The position numbers and the translations under genes were made by a program. Positions 12,497 to 26,446 of a stretch of DNA of 51,844 nt are shown here, piece by piece. The notes beneath the pieces were generated by a model that was not told the origin of the DNA, searched no databases, and was given only the letters and a program-made list of their open reading frames with translations. Origin of the DNA: an uncultured Bacteroidota bacterium (GTDB lineage: Bacteria > Bacteroidota > Bacteroidia > Flavobacteriales > Flavobacteriaceae); assembly GCA_902598295.1 (NCBI GenBank), contig CACKBA010000009.1:1-51844 (forward strand). The letters are read 5' to 3'. Every line of letters starts with the position of its first letter. Position 1 is the first letter of the stretch.

Positions 12497-13168
12497 GTGA
12501 AAAAAATTATACTATTTATTTTATTACCTGTTCTAACATTTGGTCAAGCAAATGATAATTCTATGATTGGAACAAATATAGGTTTGGATTTAGCCTACAT
12601 AAAAAGAGAACTTTCTATGCCATACAAGTCAAATAGACTCAAAATAGATGGAAATAAGTATTTTTTTAAGAAACCTTCAAATGCTACACTCCTTTTAACT
12701 GAAGAAGAAACACCAGTTAATGTAATTACAAATTATAACCTACTGGAACAAACCTTTGATATTTTTGATGGTACCGAAACCCTAAAGCTTCTACCCAATA
12801 AAATTAAAAAGGTAATTTTTCCCGATAAAGAGTTTGTCTCAATCAATGATAAATTTTATGAGGTTATCGAAATAAATGATAATTTTTCACTTCTTGCCGA
12901 TACCTATCTTGAAATTTATTTCCCCGAATATACGCCAGGAATACAAGATAAGCCTGACCCAAAATATCGTAAAAAAAATTCCGTCTTTTTATACTATAAA
13001 GACAGATTCAATTATGTTGAAAGAAGAAAAAGTTTTTTAGTATCCATGTTTGATAAGAAAATCGCTAAAGATGTAAATTCCTTTATCAAAAAAAACAAGA
13101 TATCTCCTCGCGATAATGATGAACTTAAATCTTTATTTATTGAATTTCATTCTTCCCTAAATAGATAG
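12497..13168 (+). CDS. Secreted protein of unknown function
   Basis: I do not recognise this family. The protein has a clean signal peptide (KKIILFILLPVLTFGQ, cleavage after Gly-Gln likely), then about 205 residues of mixed alpha/beta sequence with repeated short strands (NRLKIDGNKYFF, ETPVNVITNYN, FVSINDKFYEVIEIND) and a basic, helical C-terminal third (SFLVSMFDKKIAKDVNSFIKKNKISP). No catalytic motif is evident. A GTG at 12497 gives the most compact signal peptide; an in-frame TTG at 12473 would add eight residues. It starts 39 bases after the rocD-linked hydrolase and may share its transcript. The last 12 bases overlap the convergent KDPG aldolase gene. Confidence 0.7.
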   Translation: MKKIILFILLPVLTFGQANDNSMIGTNIGLDLAYIKRELSMPYKSNRLKIDGNKYFFKKPSNATLLLTEEETPVNVITNYNLLEQTFDIFDGTETLKLLPNKIKKVIFPDKEFVSINDKFYEVIEINDNFSLLADTYLEIYFPEYTPGIQDKPDPKYRKKNSVFLYYKDRFNYVERRKSFLVSMFDKKIAKDVNSFIKKNKISPRDNDELKSLFIEFHSSLNR

Positions 13169-13771
13169 TTCTAAAAACTTTTTAGATCTATTAGTAATTT
13201 CATTCCAATTATTAGTTTCAATCAGTGTTTGTTCAGCAATCCAAGATCCTCCTATTGCAATTACACTATCAGATTTTAGATATTTTTTGAAATTAGTTTG
13301 ATTAATTCCACCAAGAACAACGTATTTTAAATCGAGGTGTTTAAAAGGACTATTTATTGTATTTAAGTAGTCCATACCACCTAAATTTTCTGCTGGAAAA
13401 AATTTAAGGTAATTGATTCCATATTTAACTACGGATGAGATATCAGTTGGTGTTGAAATTCCTGGAACAAAATTAAAACCTAATTCAATAGATTTTTCAA
13501 TAATTTGGGTATCAGTTGAGGGAGAAAGTCCAAAGTCTGCTCCAACTTGTTTTGCAAAAATTAAATCATCAATCGTTAAGATTGTTCCTATTCCTACATT
13601 CAAAGGGATTTGAGAATTAACTATTTTATCAACAGATTTTTTGGAAGAATCAGTTCTTAATGCGATTTCAATATTTCTAATGCCTGAGTCATACAAGCAT
13701 TTTGCTAAATCAATGGCTTTTTTTTGGTCGTGAATAACCAAAACAGGGAGTATTTTATTATCAACAAGCAT
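13157..13771 (-). CDS. eda: 2-dehydro-3-deoxy-6-phosphogluconate/galactonate aldolase
   Basis: A 204-residue class I aldolase that cleaves KDPG (or KDPGal) to pyruvate and glyceraldehyde 3-phosphate. It has the Eda signatures: RNIEIALRT with catalytic Glu35 and Arg39, VGIGTILT, PGISTPTDI, and YLKFFPAENLGG with Schiff-base Lys123, then a phosphate-binding LGGINQ and AIGGSW. Length is typical. It is the last gene of the seven-gene reverse operon; its start overlaps the KDG kinase by 11 bases, so the two are translationally coupled and act in sequence. Whether it prefers the gluco or galacto epimer cannot be seen. The 3' end overlaps the convergent secreted-protein gene by 12 bases. Confidence 0.92.
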   Translation of the reverse strand: MLVDNKILPVLVIHDQKKAIDLAKCLYDSGIRNIEIALRTDSSKKSVDKIVNSQIPLNVGIGTILTIDDLIFAKQVGADFGLSPSTDTQIIEKSIELGFNFVPGISTPTDISSVVKYGINYLKFFPAENLGGMDYLNTINSPFKHLDLKYVVLGGINQTNFKKYLKSDSVIAIGGSWIAEQTLIETNNWNEITNRSKKFLELSI

Positions 13772-14729
13772 TATTAGTCATAAAGTTTTTTATTTCTGCG
13801 TCGTTAAATTTATTAACATCTCCTTTGTATGTATGTGCTATAGCAAAAGAAGATGCAGAAAATGATATAATTTTTTCAATATCCCATCCAGAGATGAATC
13901 CATGCATGGTAGCTCCTAGAAATGAATCTCCTGCCCCTACTCGATCAATTTGATTCACTTCATACACTTCACTCAAATAATTACTTGATTTTGAGTTTAT
14001 CAGTGCTGCTAACTTATTTTCTTTACGTATAGTCATTGCAATGAAGGGTATTTTATAGGATTTCAAAAGCTCCTCTACAGTTTTCTTTGTTTCATCAAAA
14101 ATATCACCATTGCTACTATTTACATTGATTTCCAAAATTTCTCTTACCGTATTTGAACTAGTAAATAGAAAGTCAACATTATTTAAAATTTTTTTAGTAA
14201 ATATTCTACATTGACTTAGAGACCATAAATTTTTTCTATAGTTTATATCATAAATAATTTTCACATCGTTACTTTTTGCTAACTCTACCATCTTTAATAT
14301 ATTTTCTTGACACTGACTAGATAAAGCTGGTGTTATTCCAGAGATTAGAAGATATTTTGCTTTTTTAATAGAATTTGAAAGAACAGCTTTTGGAACAGTG
14401 TACAGGGAAAAACTACTATTGGTACGATCATAGGAAATTTTAGTGGGATTATTATTTTTTCCCGGTATTGTGTAATAAACACCTAATCTGTTTTCATCAA
14501 AATTAAGATTACAGTCTATGTTGAATGATTTTAAAAATAACTCTATATCTTTACCTACAAAATTGTCAGGAAATGAAGACAAGAATTCGCAATTGTGTTT
14601 CCTTTGACCTAAAAAACTGAGAGCATTCGCCTCACATCCACCATAACTAATAGTATATTTGTTATCTATTGTTTCATCTTCAGATGAAATTCTTAACATT
14701 ATTTCCCCATAGGCAAGGATTTTATTCAT
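13761..14729 (-). CDS. kdgK: 2-dehydro-3-deoxygluconate/galactonate kinase (PfkB family)
   Basis: A 322-residue PfkB-family sugar kinase. It opens with KILAYGEIMLRI and GGCEANALSFLGQ (substrate-binding lid region), contains a mid-region DINYRKNLW, and ends with the PfkB signature DRVGAGDSFLGATMHGF, whose Asp is the catalytic base. Phosphorylation of 2-keto-3-deoxy-aldonate at O6 would feed the adjacent Eda-type aldolase. The DINYR-x-LW element and early Gly-rich block fit KDG kinases rather than fructokinases. It overlaps the aldolase by 11 bases and the RhaT-like gene by 1 base (TAATG-type junction). The pairing with an enolase-superfamily enzyme and an aldehyde dehydrogenase upstream defines the rest of the pathway. 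Confidence 0.88.
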   Translation of the reverse strand: MNKILAYGEIMLRISSEDETIDNKYTISYGGCEANALSFLGQRKHNCEFLSSFPDNFVGKDIELFLKSFNIDCNLNFDENRLGVYYTIPGKNNNPTKISYDRTNSSFSLYTVPKAVLSNSIKKAKYLLISGITPALSSQCQENILKMVELAKSNDVKIIYDINYRKNLWSLSQCRIFTKKILNNVDFLFTSSNTVREILEINVNSSNGDIFDETKKTVEELLKSYKIPFIAMTIRKENKLAALINSKSSNYLSEVYEVNQIDRVGAGDSFLGATMHGFISGWDIEKIISFSASSFAIAHTYKGDVNKFNDAEIKNFMTNNAC

Positions 14730-15730
14730 TACACAGAATTTCCAAGTCCAAGAACTATTGCAGATATTATTAAAACAACAAGTCCAGCAAGGAGCTTATT
14801 AAACGGTCCTTTGGCATTTTTCCACTCTCCAGCCCTGTAAGCCCAAAAATTACTAATTATTAAAGATAAGCCAAGAAGAATTGGCCAACCAATGACTGGT
14901 CCAATTTCACCCAACAGAGCTGCTCCCTGCCCATATACACCAAGCGCCGCAAACCAACAAAAACCTGCTATTATTGCCCATTTATACGCATTTTGTGATT
15001 TATTTATGCCAAAAGTTTTCCAAGAATTATTTCTAAATAGCAAAAATACAGAGTATCCGAAGTTCATCAAAAAAGCTCCCCAAAGCACCACTACCCATGC
15101 GACCAAGCTAGAATTTCTTGGGATGACGCCAAATTCGATTGCTGTTTGTGCTACTGGTGCGGCATTTGCAAATCCAACATTAAGTAAAGATGATAATAAA
15201 CCACATGTAACAGCAATTAAAATTCCTTTAGTTATATTTTTAGACTTATTTGAGGTTTCAATCAATTTATCTCTGTCTATTCCTGCCTTCGCTGTTATTG
15301 CAACTCCAATTAATGAAATAACTAAACCGGCTATTATATATGGGAATGATGGTTGAGAGGTCGCATTTTCAATTTGGAATAATGGAATAAGACTACCTGC
15401 TGATCCAGCAAGACCCATTACAATACCCATCGTTAATGACAGACCTATGTATGGAACACTTACCCCAAACATAATACCACCTACTCCCCAAGCAAAACCT
15501 AGTGCCATCGCCCAAAAAATTGCATCACGTGGAGAACTCGAGATAATTTCAAATAAATCAGGAATTGCAATGTATGCCCATATCATTGGAAATAATATCA
15601 TTGCAACTAAAACATGAATAACCCACCAAGACTCCCATGACATTGGATTCATGTATTTCATTCCCAAACCAAATGTTCCCTGGAAGAAACTAGCAAAAAT
15701 TAAAAGTAAAAAAGGTAAAAATAGTTCCAT
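14729..15730 (-). CDS. RhaT-family sugar:proton symporter
   Basis: A 333-residue membrane protein with about ten helices. The opening MELFLPFLLLIFASFFQGTFG, then MKYMNPMSWESWWVIH, and the central Gly/Ala-rich repeats (GFAWGVGGIMFGVSVPYIG; MGLAGSAGSLIPL) are characteristic of the L-rhamnose/H+ symporter RhaT in the drug/metabolite transporter superfamily. No rhamnose isomerase, rhamnulokinase or aldolase is nearby; instead it sits between an aldehyde dehydrogenase and KDG kinase, so it probably imports the monosaccharide that this oxidative route consumes. It lies two bases after the dehydrogenase stop and overlaps kdgK by one base. The family assignment is firm; the substrate is inferred from context. 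Confidence 0.85.
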   Translation of the reverse strand: MELFLPFLLLIFASFFQGTFGLGMKYMNPMSWESWWVIHVLVAMILFPMIWAYIAIPDLFEIISSSPRDAIFWAMALGFAWGVGGIMFGVSVPYIGLSLTMGIVMGLAGSAGSLIPLFQIENATSQPSFPYIIAGLVISLIGVAITAKAGIDRDKLIETSNKSKNITKGILIAVTCGLLSSLLNVGFANAAPVAQTAIEFGVIPRNSSLVAWVVVLWGAFLMNFGYSVFLLFRNNSWKTFGINKSQNAYKWAIIAGFCWFAALGVYGQGAALLGEIGPVIGWPILLGLSLIISNFWAYRAGEWKNAKGPFNKLLAGLVVLIISAIVLGLGNSV

Positions 15731-15732
15731 AA

Positions 15733-17175
15733 TTATTGTTTTGTTATTGTTATACGTTTTTTAATTAAGTAATCATCAAGTGCAAGCTCAGAGCAATCAT
15801 GACCAACTCCACTTTCCTTAATTCCACCATGTGGAAGATAAATATCATACTTAATACCATTTATTTGAACTTCTCCAAAATCAAGTTCATTGATAAAACG
15901 ATTAATTCTTTCTTTATTAGTAGTAAATAAGTATGATGCTAAACCATATTTAGTATTATTAGCCGAACTAATAACCTCATCCTCTGTTTTAAAAGAAATT
16001 AGTGAAGCAACGGGACCAAAAATTTCCTCATGAAAAATGTTCATTTTATCAGTTACCCCGCTAATCACTGTTGGTTGAATCCAATTACCTTGACTTAAGT
16101 CTTCAGGTGATTTTCCGCCGTACTGAATTTTTCCACCTTCCTCAATTGTCATTTTAATTAACTCTAAAACTCTTTCTTTTGACTTATTTGTAATCATAGG
16201 ACCGATATCATAATCAAGTTGTTTATTGTAACCTATTTTCAATTTCCTAGCTTTAGAAATCATTTTATCCATGAATTCATCAAAAACTTTCTCGTGGATA
16301 AAAAATCGATTTGCTGCAACGCATATTTGACCACAATTTCCAAATTTTATTGCTGCACCTATATTTGATGCTTGTTCAATATCTGCATCATCAAAAACAA
16401 TAAATGGTGCATTTCCACCAAGTTCCATACTATATTTTTTTATAGATGTAGCTGAATCTGAAATAACTCTTTTGGCGGTTTCTGTTGACCCTATCATTGT
16501 AATTAATTTCGGCAAAGTGCTTTTAGATAGGGTTGTAGCAACTTCCTCAGGTTCTCCACATAAAATATTCACAACTCCTTTTGGAAAGTTAATTTCATGA
16601 AGGATTTCACCAATAATGTATAATGATACTGGAGATAACTCTGATGGCTTTAAAATAATACTACATCCGGATGCAAGAGCAGGACCTAACTTAAATCCAG
16701 CGTTAAGCAATGGAAAATTCCAAGCCAAATATGCGACAACAACCCCAATTGGCTTTGAAACTAGATGGTGGTTGTGGGTTCCATCAGGATCAATAATTTC
16801 TTTATCCTTTTGATAATCTTCAATAATATCTGAGTAATATTTTAAACTGTTAGTGATTGACTCTATATCTTCTGCCGTAGCACCATATGGTTTTCCCATC
16901 TCATAAGAAATTGATTTTCTTAAAATCTCTTCTTTTTCTAAAATCTTATCTCTCAATATGAGCATCCACTCTTTTCTTTTCTTAAGTGGTGTTTTTGACC
17001 AATTTTGAAATCCTTGTTCTGCTGATTTTAAAGCTCTTTTAGAATCCAAACTGCTTGCCCATGAGAGTATAGCAATCTTCTCATCATTTAGAGGACTGAA
17101 AATTTCTTTTGTTTTATTATCAATCGAGGAAACTAGTTCTCCATCAATATACATTTTAAGTTGTCCAAAATTCAT
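15733..17175 (-). CDS. NAD(P)-dependent aldehyde dehydrogenase, probably acting on a sugar aldehyde
   Basis: A 480-residue ALDH-superfamily enzyme of normal length. It shows the cofactor/catalytic Asn in AYLAWNFPL, the cofactor-binding LKPSELSPVS and TMIGSTETAKRV, the general-base Glu in SMELGGNAPFIV and the catalytic Cys in FGNCGQICVAANRFF, plus EEIFGPVASL. Overall it looks like the succinate-semialdehyde/lactaldehyde dehydrogenase branch. Known 3,6-anhydrogalactose dehydrogenases belong to the same superfamily. Flanked by a cycloisomerase/dehydratase gene (2 bases upstream) and the RhaT-like symporter (2 bases downstream), it most likely oxidises the imported sugar aldehyde to an aldonate that the cycloisomerase then uses. 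Lactaldehyde oxidation is the main alternative. Confidence 0.85.
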   Translation of the reverse strand: MNFGQLKMYIDGELVSSIDNKTKEIFSPLNDEKIAILSWASSLDSKRALKSAEQGFQNWSKTPLKKRKEWMLILRDKILEKEEILRKSISYEMGKPYGATAEDIESITNSLKYYSDIIEDYQKDKEIIDPDGTHNHHLVSKPIGVVVAYLAWNFPLLNAGFKLGPALASGCSIILKPSELSPVSLYIIGEILHEINFPKGVVNILCGEPEEVATTLSKSTLPKLITMIGSTETAKRVISDSATSIKKYSMELGGNAPFIVFDDADIEQASNIGAAIKFGNCGQICVAANRFFIHEKVFDEFMDKMISKARKLKIGYNKQLDYDIGPMITNKSKERVLELIKMTIEEGGKIQYGGKSPEDLSQGNWIQPTVISGVTDKMNIFHEEIFGPVASLISFKTEDEVISSANNTKYGLASYLFTTNKERINRFINELDFGEVQINGIKYDIYLPHGGIKESGVGHDCSELALDDYLIKKRITITKQ

Positions 17176-17177
17176 TT

Positions 17178-18305
17178 TTAAATTTTAATTTCATTTAAAT
17201 AATTTTCATCCACATCAACTCCTAAACCTGGAAGTGTATTAGACTTGATATATCCATCTTTCATCGAGATATTATTTTTTATGATATTTTCTCGAATTTT
17301 ATTTTCAGTTCTATCGTATTCAATGTATGCATCATCTTGATAGAGTCTTCCGGGAATGGGTTCAAGATTTGATATGAAATTAATTGCTGTAAAAAATGCA
17401 ATTCCTGAACCCCATGTATGAGGAATTACTTTCACACCTTTGGTGGATGAAAGTGATGTTATTCTTTTTGCTTCAGTCAAACCACCACAGGAACAAATAT
17501 CCATTTGCAAAAAATCAATACATTTTTTATCCAAAAGCTTTTGAAAACCATATCTCAAATATTCACACTCACCAGCAGCAACTGGTATTTGAGACTTCGC
17601 CTTGAAATCTGAATATTGATCATAGAATTCAGGAGATAGTGGTTCTTCAAACCATTTGATTTCCGTGTTTTCTAATCGTTTTGAAAGTTTTAAAGCCTCA
17701 TCATATGAATAAGCGTGATTGGCATCAATCATAAGCTCAATATCAAAACCAATTGCATCTCTAACTGCTTTTACATTTTTTTCATCATCATCTACATTTA
17801 ATCCAACTTTCATTTTAATTGACTTAAAACCATCATTTACATATCCAATAGCTTCATCACATAAATCTTGGGTTAGGGTTTTTGAATCAGAAAAATAAAG
17901 ACCAGTTGCATAAGGTCTTATTTTTTCTCTGTATGAACCACCTAGAAGGCTAGAAACGGGTAATTTATGGTACTTTCCTTTAATGTCCCATATTGCAACA
18001 TCAATTGCACTAATTGCGGAAAGAAAAACTCCAGATCTTCCATAATCATGAACTCTTCGAAATAACGTCGACCAAATCACATCAGATTCTAATGGATTCA
18101 TTCCAATTATATTCTGCTTTATATAATCAATGCATTCTTTAACAACTGGTGCAGGTCCATATGCTTCTCCCCATCCAATTAATCCATTATCACAAATAAT
18201 TTTAACAACGCAAATTTTTCGATTACTGTATTCCCATTGTGAAAAATAAAATTCTTTCTCTAGATCTTCGTTTAAAATATGTGGTATTATTTTAGATATT
18301 TTCAT
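17178..18305 (-). CDS. Enolase-superfamily sugar-acid cycloisomerase or dehydratase (mandelate racemase-like)
   Basis: A 375-residue mandelate-racemase/muconate-lactonizing enzyme. An N-terminal capping domain (residues about 1-125) precedes a TIM-barrel with SIKMKVG (KxK acid/base), DANHAY (first metal Asp), WFEEPLSP (metal Glu), AAGECEY (metal Glu) and IPHTWGSG (catalytic His). The opening GLIGWGEAYGPAP, DIKGKYHKLPVSSLLGG and the C-terminal YIEYDRTEN...LPGLGVDVD resemble, from memory, D-galactarolactone cycloisomerase (Gci) more than galactonate or rhamnonate dehydratases. A ring-opening cycloisomerase making a 2-keto-3-deoxy-aldonate would fit the adjacent KDG kinase and KDPG aldolase, as in 3,6-anhydrogalactonate breakdown. 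The fold is certain; the reaction is inferred. It lies one base from the beta-helix gene and two from the dehydrogenase. Confidence 0.82.
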   Translation of the reverse strand: MKISKIIPHILNEDLEKEFYFSQWEYSNRKICVVKIICDNGLIGWGEAYGPAPVVKECIDYIKQNIIGMNPLESDVIWSTLFRRVHDYGRSGVFLSAISAIDVAIWDIKGKYHKLPVSSLLGGSYREKIRPYATGLYFSDSKTLTQDLCDEAIGYVNDGFKSIKMKVGLNVDDDEKNVKAVRDAIGFDIELMIDANHAYSYDEALKLSKRLENTEIKWFEEPLSPEFYDQYSDFKAKSQIPVAAGECEYLRYGFQKLLDKKCIDFLQMDICSCGGLTEAKRITSLSSTKGVKVIPHTWGSGIAFFTAINFISNLEPIPGRLYQDDAYIEYDRTENKIRENIIKNNISMKDGYIKSNTLPGLGVDVDENYLNEIKI

Positions 18306-18306
18306 T

Positions 18307-19941
18307 TTAAAAACCTTGCCATAAACCTTTTTGGTCTTCTTTTATTTTACTAATTTTCACTTTTTCAAATCCTAAAACATCAAATATATAAGATGCATCA
18401 AAACGGTTGATATCAAAAATCATGTGTTCTTTTAAATTTTGTTCGAGATTTGAAATATATGAGTTGGAACCAGAGAATAGTTTTTTAAGCTCATTTTCAG
18501 TTAATATGATGTTGTTTTTGGGTTGAATTAAAACATCTTTAGGCCAATGATCCCTGTAGAAAATATTATTTTCAAAAAAAACATTTATAATTTCAGTTCC
18601 GCCTCCTTTATCTGGTTTATACTGATCACCCAAAACCATTACAGGATCATTTTCGAAATAAAAAATATTATTGGCTACATAAATACCTTTTGAAGCTTTA
18701 TCTACAGCTATCTTTGGAATGATATCTTTTCCAACATATACCCTATTTCCGTAAATGTATGAATTAAAAGGACCATTTCTTTCCTTTCCTCTTCCAATAT
18801 ATCCACTCAACCAAAAAGTTTTTCCCTCTTGAAAAGCTCCATTTTTTCCCTTAACTCTGTGGCCATCATTGATGCTTATATTATTTCTATATGAACAATT
18901 ATAATTATTGCCTAAAATTTCAATAAACCCACCGGCATTGTTTCTGCTCAAGTTGTTTTCAACAATAACATCATTACAGTTAAAATCAATATGACATCCT
19001 GCTGAATCAGCAGGACCATTTGCATTTTGAAATTTATTTTGAGAAATGACAGCATTAGAAGTTCCCCACGTCCAAAGTCCACTACCCCTTCCCCATTTTC
19101 TAGTATCGTCAAATGAACCAGAATAGTTGATGTCATTTCCTCTAGCGAATAAATTTCTGGTACTATTAAAAACCATTCCTGGTCCACCTGTTCTTAAAAC
19201 AGTATTGTCAAATATTTCAAGGTTTTTGAATTGGTTTTCTTTTTTTCCAATAAAGCGAATAGCGGTATGTGAAATATTCGTGAATTGTGAATTTTTTATT
19301 GATATGTTCTCCAAGTTTCCAAATTCAGAAAGATTTAGAATGCGTATTCCCCAACCATAGCTTTTTGTTCCGTTAGGTGTTCGAACTTCACTTTCATTTC
19401 TTTCATAACCGGAATCTTCATAAAAAACATCTCTGATGTTGACTGACAATATATCTAAACCACTATGTAATTTTTTGTCAGTGACCAGATACAAAATCCC
19501 TGCTCTTAAATCAGTTTTTAGTTTTTTATGCAAATATTTATTTGCACCACCTCCATCCGCAGTAATATCAAGATTCCTAATTTCTATGTTTGATGAGTTT
19601 TCTATAAAAATAGCAGCAATTTTACCTTTTGAATTTATAATTGGTAGTTCAGAATTTCCGTCAGATTCATAATTGGAGATTTCAATTCCATCTTCATTTA
19701 TCAACTCTATTGTATTTAAAAAAGTAGAACCATTTGATAATAATATTTTATCACCATTTGATAATTTAATATTATTTAAAAAATCAAGACTTTTAAAAGG
19801 TTTTTCTTTAGTTCCAAGATTTGAATTATCCCCTGTTACTGAGTTGAAGAAATAACTATATCCATCATCATTTTTATCTCCGTATTGAATTTGAGAGCAT
19901 GAGCTAAAAACTAAAGCAATGATTAATAAAAATCTTTTCAT
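18307..19941 (-). CDS. Right-handed beta-helix lipoprotein, putative polysaccharide-active enzyme (copy 2)
   Basis: A 544-residue protein with a type II signal (ALVFSSC, Cys15) and a short spacer, so it is lipid-anchored. The body has an opening loop (FFNSVTGDNSNLGTKEKPFKSL) followed by many 22-26 residue coils such as IFIENSSNIEIRNLDIT, typical of parallel beta-helices in polysaccharide lyases and several GH families. The middle third carries a distinctive block: GRGSGLWTW (about 285), AGCHIDFNC (about 314) and GGFIEILGNNYNC (about 336). These recur in the upstream neighbour, showing common descent. No named CAZy family was recognised with certainty; beta-helix candidates include iota-carrageenase-like, pectate-lyase-like or GH141-like folds. 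It abuts both neighbours (0 and 1 base) inside the reverse operon. Confidence 0.78.
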   Translation of the reverse strand: MKRFLLIIALVFSSCSQIQYGDKNDDGYSYFFNSVTGDNSNLGTKEKPFKSLDFLNNIKLSNGDKILLSNGSTFLNTIELINEDGIEISNYESDGNSELPIINSKGKIAAIFIENSSNIEIRNLDITADGGGANKYLHKKLKTDLRAGILYLVTDKKLHSGLDILSVNIRDVFYEDSGYERNESEVRTPNGTKSYGWGIRILNLSEFGNLENISIKNSQFTNISHTAIRFIGKKENQFKNLEIFDNTVLRTGGPGMVFNSTRNLFARGNDINYSGSFDDTRKWGRGSGLWTWGTSNAVISQNKFQNANGPADSAGCHIDFNCNDVIVENNLSRNNAGGFIEILGNNYNCSYRNNISINDGHRVKGKNGAFQEGKTFWLSGYIGRGKERNGPFNSYIYGNRVYVGKDIIPKIAVDKASKGIYVANNIFYFENDPVMVLGDQYKPDKGGGTEIINVFFENNIFYRDHWPKDVLIQPKNNIILTENELKKLFSGSNSYISNLEQNLKEHMIFDINRFDASYIFDVLGFEKVKISKIKEDQKGLWQGF

Positions 19942-21714
19942 TTAATTACCATTATATGCTCCGATATTTGGTTTTGAGTCGCTTGTCACTGTATTCCCAA
20001 AATAGTCCCTACCTCCATTATTTTGAATATAATTTTTTACATCTGTGCTACCATTTATGATAAATCCTGAGTTAAAAGCAGGACTTCCTGATTTTAATTT
20101 ATAATCATTTGCTGAATTACCTCCTGTATTGGAAAATTGTGGATCTGTACTCAATAAATCACTAGGATCGTGATTATAGGGGTAATTTGAGTCTACAACA
20201 ACATTTCCGTAATACATGTTGTTACGAAATGAATTGAACTGTTCCGTATCATTTCTAATGTCCATAGTTAACTTGGCTTGATCACTTACATAAATGATGT
20301 TGTTGTATACATAAGTATAATCAGCTTCTCTGAAAAAGATTTCAATGTGACTCATAGGATTGTTGTTGACATCATTTATGCTGGGAACAAATACTGTATT
20401 ATTGTATATGAAGTTATTATTGGATGTCACTCTCCTGTTTTCCCCAGCGAAATCAGATATCCAAAAAACATTGCCATGGTGTTGACCCGTTCTTTTACCG
20501 TCTGCAATACTGATGTTATAACGATACCCGCACATTTCATTTTCACCTAAAATTTCAACAAAACCACCAAAATTATTTCTACTTAAGTTGTATTGCATCA
20601 CTACTCTTTCGCAACCCCAGTCAATGTGAGCACCATATGAATCTTGTGGTCCATAGGCATTCTCAAAAATATTTTCTTGAATAAGTGCATCATTACATGT
20701 GTAAGTCCACAAACCACTTCCCCTATTCCACATCCTGCTATCCTCATCAGAACCTGATCCATTGAAATGATTATTTTCTACAACAACATCTTTACATCTT
20801 GCCAAAACAATTCCAGACCCACCAGTATTTGTAAACTTTGAATTTTTAATTGTAATATTTCTGTGGTAAAATTCTGAATTAGCAGGGGACATTCTGTTAA
20901 CAATGTGAATGCCGTAATGACCTGTCAGGGAAATATCAACATCATCAATTTCAATGTTTGAATAATAATTTCTTTGACTGTTGTTGTAAGACTCAAATCT
21001 TATCCCATATCCCTGATGTTCTTTTGTTGCATCACCGGGTGTTGGGTATATATTTGATATTTTTACATTTTTAATACTGATATTTGAAATGTCTTTTCCA
21101 TCACCAAATCGAAGTGCCAAAATACCAAATCTTTCATCTTTTCCAGTTCGATCGGAGTTATGCATTAACTTATTAGATCCATCAGATTTTCTATGTGTTG
21201 CTTCATTGGTAAGCTCAACATTGGAGACGGTGATATTTTCAATATTTTCTAGAAAAATTGAGGCTTGATATCCATTTCCATCAATTATTGGAAGGTTGCC
21301 AGAACCATAACTATCCACAGTTATATGACTATTTTCAGAACCGGAACCACGTATTTTAAAATAACCTTTCCATGTGTCTCCTTTTTTAAATTTAATTATA
21401 TCCCCCGCATTAAAGGTTATACTATTTATCTTTCCAAGATTTTTAAATGCATTTTCCTCACTTTTTCCATCTTTTGAATCATCACCAGAACTAAAACTTA
21501 TGTAGTATGTTGTATTTCCATCAGAGGTTGAATCTGTATAATCATCTGGGTCTGAACCATCATCATCAGAATTATTTCCTCCGCCGTTATTTCCTCCATT
21601 GTTTCCTCCATTGTTTCCTCCATTGTTTCCTCCGTTGTCACCATCACCAGAACCACTGTCAGAGGAACATGATAAAACGAAAAGAGATAGTATCAAAATA
21701 AAAATTTTTTTCAT
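19942..21714 (-). CDS. Right-handed beta-helix lipoprotein with Gly/Asn-rich linker, putative polysaccharide-active enzyme (copy 1)
   Basis: A 590-residue lipoprotein, first gene of the reverse catabolic operon. The signal ends FVLSCSS (Cys16), followed by a flexible linker of GGNN repeats and Asp-rich sequence (about residues 18-62) that would hold the catalytic part away from the membrane. The beta-helix part starts at TYYISFSSGDDSKDG and repeats coils like ISIKNVKISNIYP. It shares with the downstream copy NRGSGLWTY (about 330), GAHIDWGC (about 361) and GGFVEILGENEMCGYRYN (about 382). Conserved Trp, His, Asp and Glu in this block are good active-site candidates, but this is inference. C-terminal SPAFNSGF and GAYNGN resemble the end of other secreted beta-helix proteins. 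It is divergent from the sulfatase gene across 62 bases. Confidence 0.78.
   Translation of the reverse strand: MKKIFILILSLFVLSCSSDSGSGDGDNGGNNGGNNGGNNGGNNGGGNNSDDDGSDPDDYTDSTSDGNTTYYISFSSGDDSKDGKSEENAFKNLGKINSITFNAGDIIKFKKGDTWKGYFKIRGSGSENSHITVDSYGSGNLPIIDGNGYQASIFLENIENITVSNVELTNEATHRKSDGSNKLMHNSDRTGKDERFGILALRFGDGKDISNISIKNVKISNIYPTPGDATKEHQGYGIRFESYNNSQRNYYSNIEIDDVDISLTGHYGIHIVNRMSPANSEFYHRNITIKNSKFTNTGGSGIVLARCKDVVVENNHFNGSGSDEDSRMWNRGSGLWTYTCNDALIQENIFENAYGPQDSYGAHIDWGCERVVMQYNLSRNNFGGFVEILGENEMCGYRYNISIADGKRTGQHHGNVFWISDFAGENRRVTSNNNFIYNNTVFVPSINDVNNNPMSHIEIFFREADYTYVYNNIIYVSDQAKLTMDIRNDTEQFNSFRNNMYYGNVVVDSNYPYNHDPSDLLSTDPQFSNTGGNSANDYKLKSGSPAFNSGFIINGSTDVKNYIQNNGGRDYFGNTVTSDSKPNIGAYNGN
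21591..21650 (-). repeat. Five 12-base tandem repeats encoding GGNN
   Basis: On the plus strand the unit TTCCTCCATTGT occurs four times in a row from 21591 and a fifth copy (21639-21650) has one change (TTCCTCCGTTGT). In the beta-helix gene it encodes the Gly-Gly-Asn-Asn linker. The unit is a multiple of three, so slippage would change linker length without a frameshift. Confidence 0.9.
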
Positions 21715-21776: not shown

Positions 21777-23438
21777 ATGTCAAAAATCATAGTACTACTT
21801 CTTTCGTTGTTTTTTGCTTTTGGATGCAACTCTGAAACTCAAACTAAACCAAATATTGTTTTAATTATGACTGATGATTTAAATGATTATAATGAGGATC
21901 TAAAAGGCCATCCACAGATAATTTCTCCAAACATTAAAAAATTGGCTGATTCTGGTGTATCTTTTAATAATGCATATTCAAACGATCCGATGTGTGGACC
22001 ATCAAGATCAAGTATGATCACAGGTGTGTATCCGCATAATTCATCTAATTTTTGGCAAAAACCCTGGTACAATAATGATGTGTTAAATAATACCAAAACA
22101 ATCATGGAGAAATTTAGAGAGAATGGATACTATGTTGTAGGTAGTGGTAAAATTTTACACCATAACAAAAAAGAATTATGGTCTGAATTTGAACATGATG
22201 CAGACTACGGACCTGTGGCATACAAGGGACTTCGGGAAAAAGGAAAAAGAGGAGTTGCCCACCCTGATGTTCAAAAACCCTTCTCTGAAATTGGACAAAT
22301 TGATGGTTCATTTGGTCCTTTTAGAAATATTTCAAACCTGGAGGAAGATGGTGAAAAAATTACATGGGCTTATGGTGGTTCTAGAGGATACAAAAAATTT
22401 AAGTATATAAGTGAAGATGACAGAGATTTAACCCCGGATGAAATCAATGCACAGTGGGCTGAAAATAAAATCAATGAGTTAGCCAAATCAGACAACGATA
22501 ATCCTTTCTTTTTGGCAGTTGGATTTTTAAGACCACATACACCACTTATTGCTCCACAAAAGTATTTTGATATGTATCCTCTTGAAGAGATTCAATTAGC
22601 CAATATCTTAGAAAATGACATGGATGATACATTTTTAAATTATGTTGAAAGCAATAATATTGAAAAGACTGAGGTTTGGGAAAACAACTCAACACTTACT
22701 CACAAACAACTAAGCAAAAGATCTGTTGAAATGTATTATAAACTTAAAGAATCTTATAAAGATTCTGATGAGGGACTAAAAAGGTTTACTCAAGCTTATC
22801 TTGCTTGTGTTACTGCCGTTGATGATAACATTGGACAAGTAGTTAATGCTATTGATAACTCTAAGTTCAAAGACAATACAATCATTGTTTTTGTTAGTGA
22901 CCATGGATGGACCATGGGTGAAAAAAATCATGTATACAAAAATTCACTTTGGGAAGAGAGCACAAGAGTTCCTCTAACAATTAGAGCACCTGGGGTTACA
23001 AAACCCAACTCAAAGGTTAATCATCCCGTTTCTCTGATTGATGTCTACCCTACTTTGTTGGAATTGGCAGGACTGGATAATAACACAGTAAAAAATGACA
23101 GAGGAAAACCACTAGATGGATTTAGCTTAAAGCCATTTCTGGAAGATCCAAATACAAAAAACTGGGATGGACCTCAAGGAGCCTTATCTGTTGTTTACAG
23201 CTCAGATCAAAATCAAAATATATCCTCTAATCATCATTATTCTCTCAGAACGAAAGACTGGAGATATATAATTTATGATTCAGGAAAAGAAGAACTCTAT
23301 CACAATGCTGTTGATCCGAAAGAATGGAATAACTTGGTTTATGAAAAAACTCATCCAAAAAGAGATGAGATGGTGAAAATTCTAAAAAAAATAACCCACC
23401 CAATGGTACCAAACGGTCTAAAAAAATTACAACTATGA
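21777..23438 (+). CDS. Sulfatase (S1 family, iduronate-2-sulfatase-like), lipoprotein
   Basis: A 553-residue formylglycine-dependent sulfatase. The N-terminus is a lipoprotein signal (SLFFAFGC, Cys17). KPNIVLIMTDDLN supplies the first calcium-binding Asp pair, and DPMCGPSRSS carries the CxPSR motif with Cys73 as the residue to be converted to formylglycine. GSGKILHH, FLRPHTPLIAP and FVSDHGWTMGEKNHVYK give further metal and sulfate ligands. The layout resembles iduronate-2-sulfatase-type members (S1_7 or nearby subfamilies) known from marine carrageenan, ulvan and fucoidan degraders. It would remove sulfate esters from oligosaccharides at the cell surface or in the periplasm. No maturation enzyme is in the window. 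It overlaps the GH2 gene by ATGA and is divergent from the beta-helix operon. Confidence 0.92.
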   Translation: MSKIIVLLLSLFFAFGCNSETQTKPNIVLIMTDDLNDYNEDLKGHPQIISPNIKKLADSGVSFNNAYSNDPMCGPSRSSMITGVYPHNSSNFWQKPWYNNDVLNNTKTIMEKFRENGYYVVGSGKILHHNKKELWSEFEHDADYGPVAYKGLREKGKRGVAHPDVQKPFSEIGQIDGSFGPFRNISNLEEDGEKITWAYGGSRGYKKFKYISEDDRDLTPDEINAQWAENKINELAKSDNDNPFFLAVGFLRPHTPLIAPQKYFDMYPLEEIQLANILENDMDDTFLNYVESNNIEKTEVWENNSTLTHKQLSKRSVEMYYKLKESYKDSDEGLKRFTQAYLACVTAVDDNIGQVVNAIDNSKFKDNTIIVFVSDHGWTMGEKNHVYKNSLWEESTRVPLTIRAPGVTKPNSKVNHPVSLIDVYPTLLELAGLDNNTVKNDRGKPLDGFSLKPFLEDPNTKNWDGPQGALSVVYSSDQNQNISSNHHYSLRTKDWRYIIYDSGKEELYHNAVDPKEWNNLVYEKTHPKRDEMVKILKKITHPMVPNGLKKLQL

Positions 23439-26400
23439 AAAAATTTCTGTTTTTATTATTTGTCTTAATAAGTTTTTCAATTGAATCCCAAGAGAGATTT
23501 AACAATCAAATGCTTAATGGAGAATGGGAAATAATATATGATGAAAATAATGAAGGAAAAAAGAATAAATATCATTCTAATGATGGTTTTGATAATGGAT
23601 TGATTGAAAAAATTTATGTACCTAGTGTTTGGGAGAGATATAAGAAAGACTATGAGGGTGTTGTTTATTACAGAAGAAAGTTTAAAGTTCCCAAATCAGA
23701 GTCAAATAAAAAAGTTCATTTAAATTTTAACGCTTCAAATTATATAACAGAGGTGTATGTTAATGACAATTCAATAGGATTTCATGAGGGGGGTTTTTCT
23801 CCGTTTTCTTTCAACATTGAGCATGTTCTTGATTTTGAAAATGAAAATACGTTAATAGTAAAAGTTATGGGTCCAATAACTATTCAAGACAAAGTTATTG
23901 ACGGAATTGGTCAAATGGAAACTCCACAGTGGAGAGGATCATATACAGGCGGAATATGGCAAGATATTTTCCTTTCATTTACAGCTCAAACCCATATTAA
24001 GGATGTTTTTATCATTGCGAACTATAAAAATGGAAGTGTAGAATTAAAAAACAAAATATTGAATGGATTAGGAGACGGTAATTACAGATATAAATATTCT
24101 ATCAATAATCTACATAATCCTTCTGAAAAAACAACATATGAAAAGGAGTTAACAATTCAAAACTCAAAATTAATCGTTGACTTTGATCTAAAACACCAAA
24201 TTAAAAATCACAAATTATGGTCTCCTGAAGACCCACAAATTTATGAGTTGGAAATTTTTTTAGATAAGGTTACTGAAAATGAACAAGGGACTGTATATAC
24301 AAAACTCGATCATGTCAAAGAAAAATTTGGATTTAGGGAATTTACAGTTGAGAATGATCGATTTTATTTGAATGGTGAACCAATTTATTTAAAAGCAGCT
24401 TTTTTTGAAGGTTTATATCCAGTTAAACTCTCATATCCTGACTCAAAGAAAATGATGATTAAAGAGATTTTATTGGCTAAAGAAGCGGGTTTTAATATGA
24501 TTAGACCATGGAGAAAACCTCCACCAAAAGAATGGCTTCATTTGGCTGATTCTATTGGCGTGTTAACGGTTGGTAGTATGGCAATAGAATGTATGGATAT
24601 GCCAATAGAATCTCCTTACCTGCCAAAAAGAGTAGAAAATGAAATAACGGAAGCAATCTTGAGGGACAGGAATCATCCCTCTATTGTGCAATGGGAATTG
24701 TTTAATGAAATAAGAAGACCTGTGCTGGCCAATATGTTAGTACCAATGTCTTTAAAAGCTAGAGAATTAGACCCAACTAGAATGATACTTGATGAGTCTG
24801 GAGGTTGGGCATATGGTGCCAACTTATACCTACCTTTTTCAAATAAAGCATTTAAATTTAATGACATCCATAATTACCCTGGACCAAACATCACAAATAA
24901 CAAATTTGATGGTTTTCTAACAATAGGTAATACTAAAGAGAAAAATATTGAATTAGGGTTAAATGCAAGAACACCTGGAAGAAATGTAGTGCCCAACATA
25001 TCATCTTATGTTTCAGAAATAGGATATGGAAGTTTACCCGATTTAGAGAATAATGAAGCTTTATTTAAAGAAAAAGGAAACCCAATAACCTATCCTTATA
25101 TATACCATATTAATTACAACAGAGATATAAAAAAGGCTTTAAGAGAAACAGGCTTGGATAAAATATTTAAATCTGCTACTGATTTCTACCTGAAACAGCA
25201 AGAAATTCATGGGATTGCTAACAAAAGAATGTTGGAGGCTATAAGGTCTAACCCTACTGTTATTGGTTATTGTGTACATGCTCTAACTGCTGGAGATTGG
25301 ATTATTGGTGCTGGATTACTTGATCTATGGCGCAATCCAAAAGGGAAAGCATATGATTTGACAAAAGAAGCTAATGAGGATAGAATCATTGTTATTAGAA
25401 CTGATAAAAGAAATTATTATCTAGGTGAGTCTATCAAAATAGAAATAAAAGGGATTAATGATAAGAGTGTATTGAACGGAAACCTTTCTGTTAGAATAAA
25501 ATCTCAGAAAAATAAAAAAGTTCTTTATGAGAATAAAACAAAGACACAGCTCGAAAAAGGAATATCTCTAATTCATGATGACACTGTAGATTTAGATGTG
25601 GGAAATTATATTATTGAATCTAATTTTAATTCACAAAAAACCAAATTATTTTCAGCGATTGAATTCAGTGTCTACAACACAAAATCAAAAAAAACTGGGA
25701 AAAAAATTGCTCTTGCCAATAAAGATAAAAGACTTGAAAAATTTCTAATTGATAAAGGGTTTGATGTAATAAGTTTTAATAAAAAACAAAAAATCGATGT
25801 TCCTGTGATATTTAGTAATGAAAAAGCAGAATTTATTAACTCTAGTGATGGAAACGTTGTTAAAAATGAAGACAATCAAGATAATCTTCTGTCACCGAGT
25901 GGGCCATCATCAAATTCAAAAAACAGTCAACTTGAGTCAAGAATCACCAAGTTAAACAGTTTTGTACAAAAGGGAGGAAATGTAATTTATCTTTCAGTGC
26001 CTGGAAAAACACGAGTAAGGAAAGGACCAAACCTAACTTTTATTGATGAAGGAGAAAACTACTTACCTGTTAAGTTTGTTAAAAATATTTCACAAGGATT
26101 ATGGGATGGAATTCTCCATGTTAATTCCAATCACAAAATTTTTAAAGATTTACCAACTAATGTCAACATGAGTGGAACATATGAGAATATAGCCCCAACT
26201 ATAACATTGAGAGGGATTGATGCGGAAAATTTAGTTAACACTATTGCATTTGATAGAATTCCCGACGGAAATATCATGAAAAGAAACTATATTGGTTCAG
26301 GAGATGTATGGTCAGGGTCAGATCTCTCAATTGTAAAACATGGGGATGGAAAAATTATTCTATCTACACTAAAATTAATTCAAAATATAGGATACGACCC

Positions 26401-26446
26401 TGTGGCTGAAATTGTTTTAATGAATATGATTAATTACTTAGACTAA
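23435..26446 (+). CDS. Glycoside hydrolase family 2 beta-glycosidase with extra C-terminal domain
   Basis: A 1003-residue secreted enzyme (signal MKKFLFLLFVLISFSIESQ). Domain order: GH2 sugar-binding jelly roll (about 25-190: LNGEWEIIYDE, VPSVWERY, YYRRKF), immunoglobulin-like domain (about 190-300), TIM barrel (about 300-650) with acid/base Glu425 in WELFNE and nucleophile Glu528 in VSEIGYG, then about 350 more residues. The last 250 residues (FVQKGGNVIYLS, HGDGKIILSTLKL) resemble the glutamine-amidotransferase-like accessory domain of some beta-galactosidases. The usual NRHE-type substrate loop is replaced by KAAFFEGLYP, so standard lactose activity is unlikely. Family substrates include beta-galactosides and beta-glucuronides; agar and porphyran galactosidases also belong to GH2. 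It is coupled to the sulfatase by a 4-base overlap. Confidence 0.9.
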   Translation: MKKFLFLLFVLISFSIESQERFNNQMLNGEWEIIYDENNEGKKNKYHSNDGFDNGLIEKIYVPSVWERYKKDYEGVVYYRRKFKVPKSESNKKVHLNFNASNYITEVYVNDNSIGFHEGGFSPFSFNIEHVLDFENENTLIVKVMGPITIQDKVIDGIGQMETPQWRGSYTGGIWQDIFLSFTAQTHIKDVFIIANYKNGSVELKNKILNGLGDGNYRYKYSINNLHNPSEKTTYEKELTIQNSKLIVDFDLKHQIKNHKLWSPEDPQIYELEIFLDKVTENEQGTVYTKLDHVKEKFGFREFTVENDRFYLNGEPIYLKAAFFEGLYPVKLSYPDSKKMMIKEILLAKEAGFNMIRPWRKPPPKEWLHLADSIGVLTVGSMAIECMDMPIESPYLPKRVENEITEAILRDRNHPSIVQWELFNEIRRPVLANMLVPMSLKARELDPTRMILDESGGWAYGANLYLPFSNKAFKFNDIHNYPGPNITNNKFDGFLTIGNTKEKNIELGLNARTPGRNVVPNISSYVSEIGYGSLPDLENNEALFKEKGNPITYPYIYHINYNRDIKKALRETGLDKIFKSATDFYLKQQEIHGIANKRMLEAIRSNPTVIGYCVHALTAGDWIIGAGLLDLWRNPKGKAYDLTKEANEDRIIVIRTDKRNYYLGESIKIEIKGINDKSVLNGNLSVRIKSQKNKKVLYENKTKTQLEKGISLIHDDTVDLDVGNYIIESNFNSQKTKLFSAIEFSVYNTKSKKTGKKIALANKDKRLEKFLIDKGFDVISFNKKQKIDVPVIFSNEKAEFINSSDGNVVKNEDNQDNLLSPSGPSSNSKNSQLESRITKLNSFVQKGGNVIYLSVPGKTRVRKGPNLTFIDEGENYLPVKFVKNISQGLWDGILHVNSNHKIFKDLPTNVNMSGTYENIAPTITLRGIDAENLVNTIAFDRIPDGNIMKRNYIGSGDVWSGSDLSIVKHGDGKIILSTLKLIQNIGYDPVAEIVLMNMINYLD

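Follow-up and report, generated by a model that had tools for sequence, protein, structure and literature searches.

Two adjacent genes, BHb and BHa, on contig CACKBA010000009.1 (GCA_902598295.1) of an uncultured Flavobacteriaceae bacterium, analyzed here over a stretch of 51,844 nt (the window), encode distant relatives of glycoside hydrolase family 136 (GH136) in which both the fold and the catalytic dyad of this family are kept. We propose, with moderate confidence, that BHa and BHb are retaining, GH136-related glycosidases depolymerizing a sulfated, 3,6-anhydro-D-galactose-containing (carrageenan-type) galactan. The fold and mechanism are already known, whereas the sister clade with an altered active site, encoded in an anhydrogalactose operon, is new; to our knowledge, GH136 has been characterized only as a gut milk-oligosaccharide family. 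Homology, catalytic-pair alignment, fold prediction, operon layout, and pathway homology were computed. The two genes and the conserved block of each are as follows:

18307..19941, - strand: BHa, GH136-like right-handed beta-helix protein, 544 aa, lipoprotein-type N-terminus
18847..19134, - strand: BHa active-site block, residues 270-365 (W290, W292, D312, H317, D319, E341, R352)
19942..21714, - strand: BHb, GH136-like beta-helix protein, 590 aa, lipoprotein-type N-terminus, acidic Gly/Asn-rich linker
20482..20769, - strand: BHb active-site block, about residues 316-411 (W336, Y338, D358, H363, D365, E387)

Both open reading frames (ORFs) were found where a sequence-only reading of this DNA had located them, with the three segments it had described (GSGLWT[WY], H-I-D-[FW]-x-C, and GGF[IV]EILG-x-N) in the same order and spacing in BHa and BHb; no nucleotide lies between the BHb stop and the BHa start, and signal and lipobox-like features are seen in the sequence of both N-termini. 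The two proteins share 34% identity (E 5e-60). Within the block (BHa 270-365) identity rises to 56%, compared with 28% for the remainder, and none of 20,000 shuffles of the match states equalled this window of conservation, in agreement with the claim that the block is far better conserved than the rest. Residues invariant in 27 homologs (BHa numbering) include R281, W283, R285, G286, S287, W290, D312, S313, and G315, as well as H317, I318, D319, E341, R352, D359, R362, and W377. The proposed right-handed beta-helix was recovered by Pfam Beta_helix, with both proteins scoring above the cut-off, and by both AlphaFold2 models (mean pLDDT 82.7 for BHa and 78.9 for BHb).

The same reading had assigned the proteins to no known family and had named PL6, GH82, and GH141 as candidates; neither view held. 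A family profile built from the 27 homologs and searched against PDB sequences matched five sequences at E <=0.01, all of them GH136-type lacto-N-biosidases (6KQS 7e-37, 7V6M 2e-35, 5GQC 4e-35, 7V6I 1e-28); lacto-N-biosidases had been matched already by single-sequence searches. No PL6 or AlgE chain appeared at E 0.01, their likeness being one of fold only; GH141 gave no sequence match, BT_1002 being found by fold only; and GH82 gave no sequence match and was also missing from the fold lists, an absence that excludes nothing on its own. Foldseek ranked GH136 structures 1-6 for the BHb and BHa models alike (E 1e-20 and 4e-14). With VIA-align, BHb aligned to GH136 with Z 33.6 (root-mean-square deviation 2.8, 466 residues, 27% identity) and to the best other family with Z 29.1 (2.5, 333 residues), and BHa aligned to GH136 with Z 26.6 (428 residues, 24% identity) and to the best other beta-helix with Z 28.8 (335 residues, 14% identity). 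The NCBIfam LnbX equivalog cut-off (2500) was not reached (BHb 32 bits, BHa no match). BHa and BHb have the whole beta-helix fold in common with the GH136 lacto-N-biosidases (LnbX 5GQC, BsaX 7V6I, TnX 7V6M, ErLnb136 6KQS), as well as the N-terminal YYxSxxxGDD region, the aromatic G-x-W-x-[WY] strand, the catalytic D-x6-D, and the C-terminal GN-x3-P-[DN]-[IL]-GA end; unlike them, they form a separate clade and occur in a marine sulfated-galactan setting. Of the idea that they represent a new family, the clade, the altered residues, and the substrate context are indeed new, whereas the fold and the dyad are not.

In ErLnb136, D568 is the acid/base, D575 the nucleophile, and W548 the stacking residue (PMC7335108). 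In the 6KQS sequence, Asp570, Asp577, and Trp550 fit these published numbers at a single offset of two, whereas an offset of zero would place Asn at 568. Their counterparts in the alignment are D312, D319, and W292 in BHa and D358, D365, and Y338 in BHb, so that the block coincides with the aligned acid/base and nucleophile, as expected from the suggestion that it forms the catalytic site. The two aspartates, seven residues apart, are present in both proteins and invariant in the 27 homologs. The clade differs from GH136 in that His stands where GH136 has an Asp, five residues past the acid/base, and in that the Glu of GGFxEILG, lacking in the GH136 structures, is invariant. The DSSP strand register of the BHa model suggests that W290/W292, H317/D319, and E341 follow one another, rung by rung, along the same face, which would be consistent with a groove or pocket.

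Every wider relative examined carries D-x6-D, in two kinds: "GIWPW...D-x4-D-x-D", found in the GH136 structures and in BHd, a paralog from the genus of the window, and "GSxxW...D-x4-H-x-D...GGFxE[IV]LG", found in BHa, BHb, a further paralog termed BHc, and Flammeovirga. In the tree, for which GH136 sequences were taken from printed alignments (two of them partial), the two kinds split at 100/100, and the BHa and BHb clades are each supported at 100/100; BHb is closer to BHc/Flammeovirga, with support of 88/77 only. The description of BHa and BHb as tandem paralogs is correct as to their position, whereas a recent duplication in place is rejected, because in the tree each belongs to an old clade with support of its own, which makes them old paralogs. 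CAZy GH136 calls have been reported for Flammeovirga (PMC8653839); the F. kamogawensis protein (640-kb replicon; "GH136" of chromosome II, PMC8653839) belongs to the same wider HID/HVD-GGFxEILG clade and is GH136 by annotation only, and, unlike BHa and BHb, it lies outside any dau neighborhood. BHc (D-x6-D, GGFVEILG) is encoded in the window's own genome, and in G032 it is divergent from, and next to, a small GH16 lipoprotein (L049 4543-6540 and 13990-14907; L051 5551-7560 and 7590-8528). BHd, nearer true GH136, adjoins a sulfatase (L054 6643-8097 and 8133-9509).

BHb and BHa open a seven-gene operon running in one direction (BHb-BHa-dauB-dauA-symporter-kinase-aldolase) in which neighboring genes are separated by <=2 nt or overlap slightly, and a sulfatase and a GH2 gene, divergent from it, start 62 nt upstream of BHb:

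17178..18305, - strand: DauB-type 3,6-anhydro-D-galactonate cycloisomerase, 50% identical to ZGAL_3156 (PDB 5OLC)
15733..17175, - strand: DauA-type 3,6-anhydro-D-galactose dehydrogenase, 47% identical to PS47 DauA (PDB 6PNU)
14729..15730, - strand: RhaT/DMT-type sugar-proton symporter
13761..14729, - strand: 2-keto-3-deoxy sugar-acid kinase (DauC role)
13157..13771, - strand: KDPG/KDPGal-type aldolase (DauD role)
21777..23438, + strand: family S1 sulfatase, lipoprotein-type N-terminus, divergent from the operon
23435..26446, + strand: GH2 glycosidase (beta-galactosidase/glucuronidase group)

By homology, the locus encodes 3,6-anhydro-D-galactose catabolism. Against 5OLC, the Zobellia 3,6-anhydro-D-galactonate cycloisomerase, DauB gave an E value of 3e-129, and it was 37% identical to the Agrobacterium galactarolactone cycloisomerase (AtGCI); at 216 sites distinguishing ZGAL_3156 from AtGCI, it agreed with ZGAL_3156 at 78 and with AtGCI at 29, and its match to the L-anhydrogalactonate enzyme 5XD7 (E 1.5e-40) was far weaker than that to 5OLC. 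PS47 DauA was the best PDB match of DauA (E 5e-146, 47%), other aldehyde dehydrogenases reaching <=315 bits. DauA, a DauB nearer to ZGAL_3156, the kinase, the aldolase, and the symporter thus occur together, and Zobellia has the same dau genes, its kinase, aldolase, and DMT symporter included (PMC5698469). Because the pathway handles D-anhydrogalactose, the substrate is most likely a carrageenan-type sulfated galactan, and of the substrates named by the sequence-only reading (sulfated galactans, ulvan, alginate, and fucoidan) only the first is retained. The Z. galactanivorans locus ZGAL_3145-3159 (PMC5698469) resembles that of the window in dauA-D, the DMT sugar symporter, and sulfatases, and Zobellia also has a GH2, located elsewhere in its genome; its anhydrogalactosidases, however, are GH127 and GH129-like, whereas in the window two GH136-like proteins hold that place. 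Pseudoalteromonas fuliginea PS47 (PMC6923384) has DauA and lacks GH127, as here, and also lacks GH129, and its exo-enzyme GH167 releases the beta-neocarrabiose disaccharide; the candidates given for its anhydrogalactosidase are beta-propellers, and no GH136-like protein is named in the text read.

BHa and BHb are the only secreted proteins without assignment in this nine-gene polysaccharide-degradation set. Backbone cleavage had been considered the one activity missing from the locus; its role in polysaccharide degradation stands, but two steps have no known enzyme in it, namely beta-1,4 cleavage of the polymer, whether endo or exo, and alpha-1,3-(3,6-anhydro)-D-galactosidase. No GH127 was found in any of the 21 genomes searched from the genus, the positive control being detected; its absence rests on the number of genomes, because each is only 55-85% complete. 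The PF11308 (GH129) search gave no match anywhere, the controls being likewise silent, and Zobellia DagB reportedly shares only 16% identity with GH129. In the locus, neither a GH16 nor a GH82 carrageenase was recognized. The genus has separate GH16 genes, whose assignment as carrageenases is unsupported, their best NCBIfam matches being weak and mostly to glucanase/glycanase models.

Outside the genus, BHa orthologs (43-50% identical) are rare, occurring in 5 of 394 other Bacteroidota genomes at E 1e-30, distant paralogs counted. They lie beside SusC-SusD (L014, L016, L018, G095), sulfatases (L015, L017-L020, G095, G158), or GH2 (L019); L018 is from a cultured relative, Flavilitoribacter nigricans. 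G426, a divergent metagenome-assembled genome (MAG), has an orthologous GH2-sulfatase-dau cluster (identities to the window: GH2 41%, sulfatase 49%, dauA 58%, dauB 58%, symporter 65%), with SusC-SusD-BHa on a separate contig and both BHb and GH127 below the cut-off. Because the cluster is repeated there with BHa and without BHb, this gene set suggests that BHa is the common depolymerizing enzyme. The G426 anhydrogalactose cluster also encodes a GH78-like protein, possibly another anhydrogalactosidase candidate, and further sulfatases (L094 2809-5358). DauB is missing at E 1e-20 from two genomes with BHa (G158 and G432), and four others (G095, G427, G430, G431) have only 27-35% DauB matches. 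In G158 (99% complete), the orthologous sulfatase and the BHa gene that follows it adjoin galE; galT, galK, and a gene for a formylglycine-generating-enzyme-like protein are close by, these neighbors being named by eye from their sequences. In the Flavobacteriaceae genome G185, stops or a loss of frame interrupt BHa (L066, G185:C17, 9384-11131), and two GH127 genes adjoin dauA-dauB on a different contig, as if, in this single genome, one route had replaced the other.

In the scheme that we infer for substrate, bond, exo mode, division of labor, double displacement, and import via the symporter, BHa and BHb would depolymerize the carrageenan-type galactan outside the cytoplasm, with D312 (BHa) and D358 (BHb) as acid/base and D319 and D365 as nucleophile of a double displacement, and with the sugar stacked on W292 (BHa) or Y338 (BHb). 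BHa would most likely cut a beta-galactosidic bond from the chain end, and BHb a second bond in the polymer, possibly the alpha-1,3 bond releasing anhydrogalactose. The sulfatase and GH2 would then trim the products, the symporter would import the monosaccharide, and DauA-D would turn anhydrogalactose into pyruvate and glyceraldehyde-3-phosphate. By analogy, action is probably exo. The beta-galactosidic bond is preferred for BHa because GH136 enzymes are retaining on beta bonds and have a pocket, unlike the long cleft of polymer-acting beta-helix enzymes (PMC8106489), and cutting from the chain end because GH136 breaks a beta bond to release a 1,3-linked disaccharide.

Several points weigh against this proposal. 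The Z score of BHa for GH136 is not above that for other beta-helices, although Foldseek ranks GH136 first, and since VIA-align fails to separate GH136, the case for BHa rests on sequence and Foldseek. No helical GH136-I/LnbY-like partner, adjacent or fused, is present in the operon or in the BHa and BHb proteins. With His in the place of a conserved Asp and an extra Glu, the subsites, and perhaps the mechanism, may differ from those of GH136. The anomeric preference and the exo mode are taken by analogy from GH136 at about 25% identity, the activity is a prediction, and how BHa and BHb divide the work is guesswork. Judged from gene content, moreover, BHa is not bound to anhydrogalactose, since orthologs exist in genomes lacking DauB, and a strict tie was rejected.

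It is possible, if somewhat unlikely, that BHa and/or BHb are instead alpha-1,3-(3,6-anhydro)-D-galactosidases replacing GH127 and the GH129-like DagB, which would remove the anhydrogalactose at the non-reducing end directly, with GH2 then taking the next galactose. Such a role would fit the dau genes in the BHb-BHa operon, the absence of GH127 from the genus, the recurrence of BHa, GH2, sulfatase, and dauA-D without GH127 in G426, a beta-cleavage already supplied by GH2, and the broken BHa of G185 with its two GH127 genes beside dauA-dauB. By our reasoning, the alpha bond is equatorial in anhydrogalactose forced into the 1C4 form, so that a catalytic apparatus suited to equatorial bonds could serve again; an anhydrogalactosidase from a family yet to be assigned is reportedly required by Pseudoalteromonas (PMC6923384). 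However, orthologs in DauB-less or weak-DauB genomes, in G158 beside galactose genes, argue for a galactosidic bond, and a DagB type may still be present, given the silent PF11308 search. On the bond, the G426 set and the DauB-less genomes point in opposite ways. A combination of both roles, in which BHa and BHb form, in open-water flavobacteria with small genomes, a new two-enzyme carrageenan-type route of exo release of a neocarrabiose-type disaccharide and alpha-1,3-(3,6-anhydro)-D-galactosidase, is rather doubtful; if true, it would link the fold for the first time to anhydrogalactosidase activity and offer a candidate family for organisms growing on carrageenan without GH127 or GH129.

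Unlikely, in turn, are endo-acting beta-helix carrageenases feeding oligosaccharides to the sulfatase and GH2, in line with the sequence-only reading: many endo-enzymes use beta-helix folds, no GH16/GH82 carrageenase gene was recognized in the locus, and the long acidic linker after the BHb lipobox could set this protein at the cell surface, but the GH136 pocket contrasts with the long cleft of polymer-acting enzymes (PMC8106489), and separate GH16 genes exist in the genus. That BHa and BHb are PL6/AlgE-type polysaccharide lyases or epimerases we consider very improbable; AlgE and PL6 structures have the same broad fold (Z 25-29 against the models), but GH136 is the only family found by sequence, and its D-x6-D dyad is invariant. 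Carrageenan-type galactans contain no uronic acid and hence no target for beta-elimination. If the proposed GH136-related depolymerization is confirmed, BHa and BHb would represent a new class of enzymes acting on sulfated galactans from red algae (or from an unknown planktonic source) and a candidate for a step to which no enzyme has been assigned in some carrageenan degraders, and their genes could serve as a marker for anhydrogalactan feeding by open-water flavobacteria with small genomes.

The locus is flanked by the housekeeping genes gyrA, clpC, gcvT, and ftsK. No SusC/D was recognized among the scanned window proteins, SusD-type genes being located elsewhere in the genome, and the promoter and terminator scan found nothing beyond chance. 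The operon gene order is kept in 13 related loci from single-amplified genomes and MAGs, as far as each contig extends; this is stable linkage in the genus and no sign of independent selection for linkage, because neighboring genes are conserved as well. Against L004-L012, the kinase and aldolase (window 13157-14729) are 39-50% identical and dauB and the symporter 72-88%, which suggests, from these identities, that the kinase and aldolase were swapped for other versions between related loci. BHa is in two ORFs in one MAG (L005 10001-11596; frame/stop change, or sequencing error), and in L003 (4855-8165) the sulfatase is tandemly duplicated, its copies being 76% and 90% identical to that of the window. 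Genomes of the genus (G000-G018) measure only 0.9-1.5 Mb, yet contain 6-29 family S1 sulfatase matches apiece, which is exceptionally dense for marine genomes of this small size.

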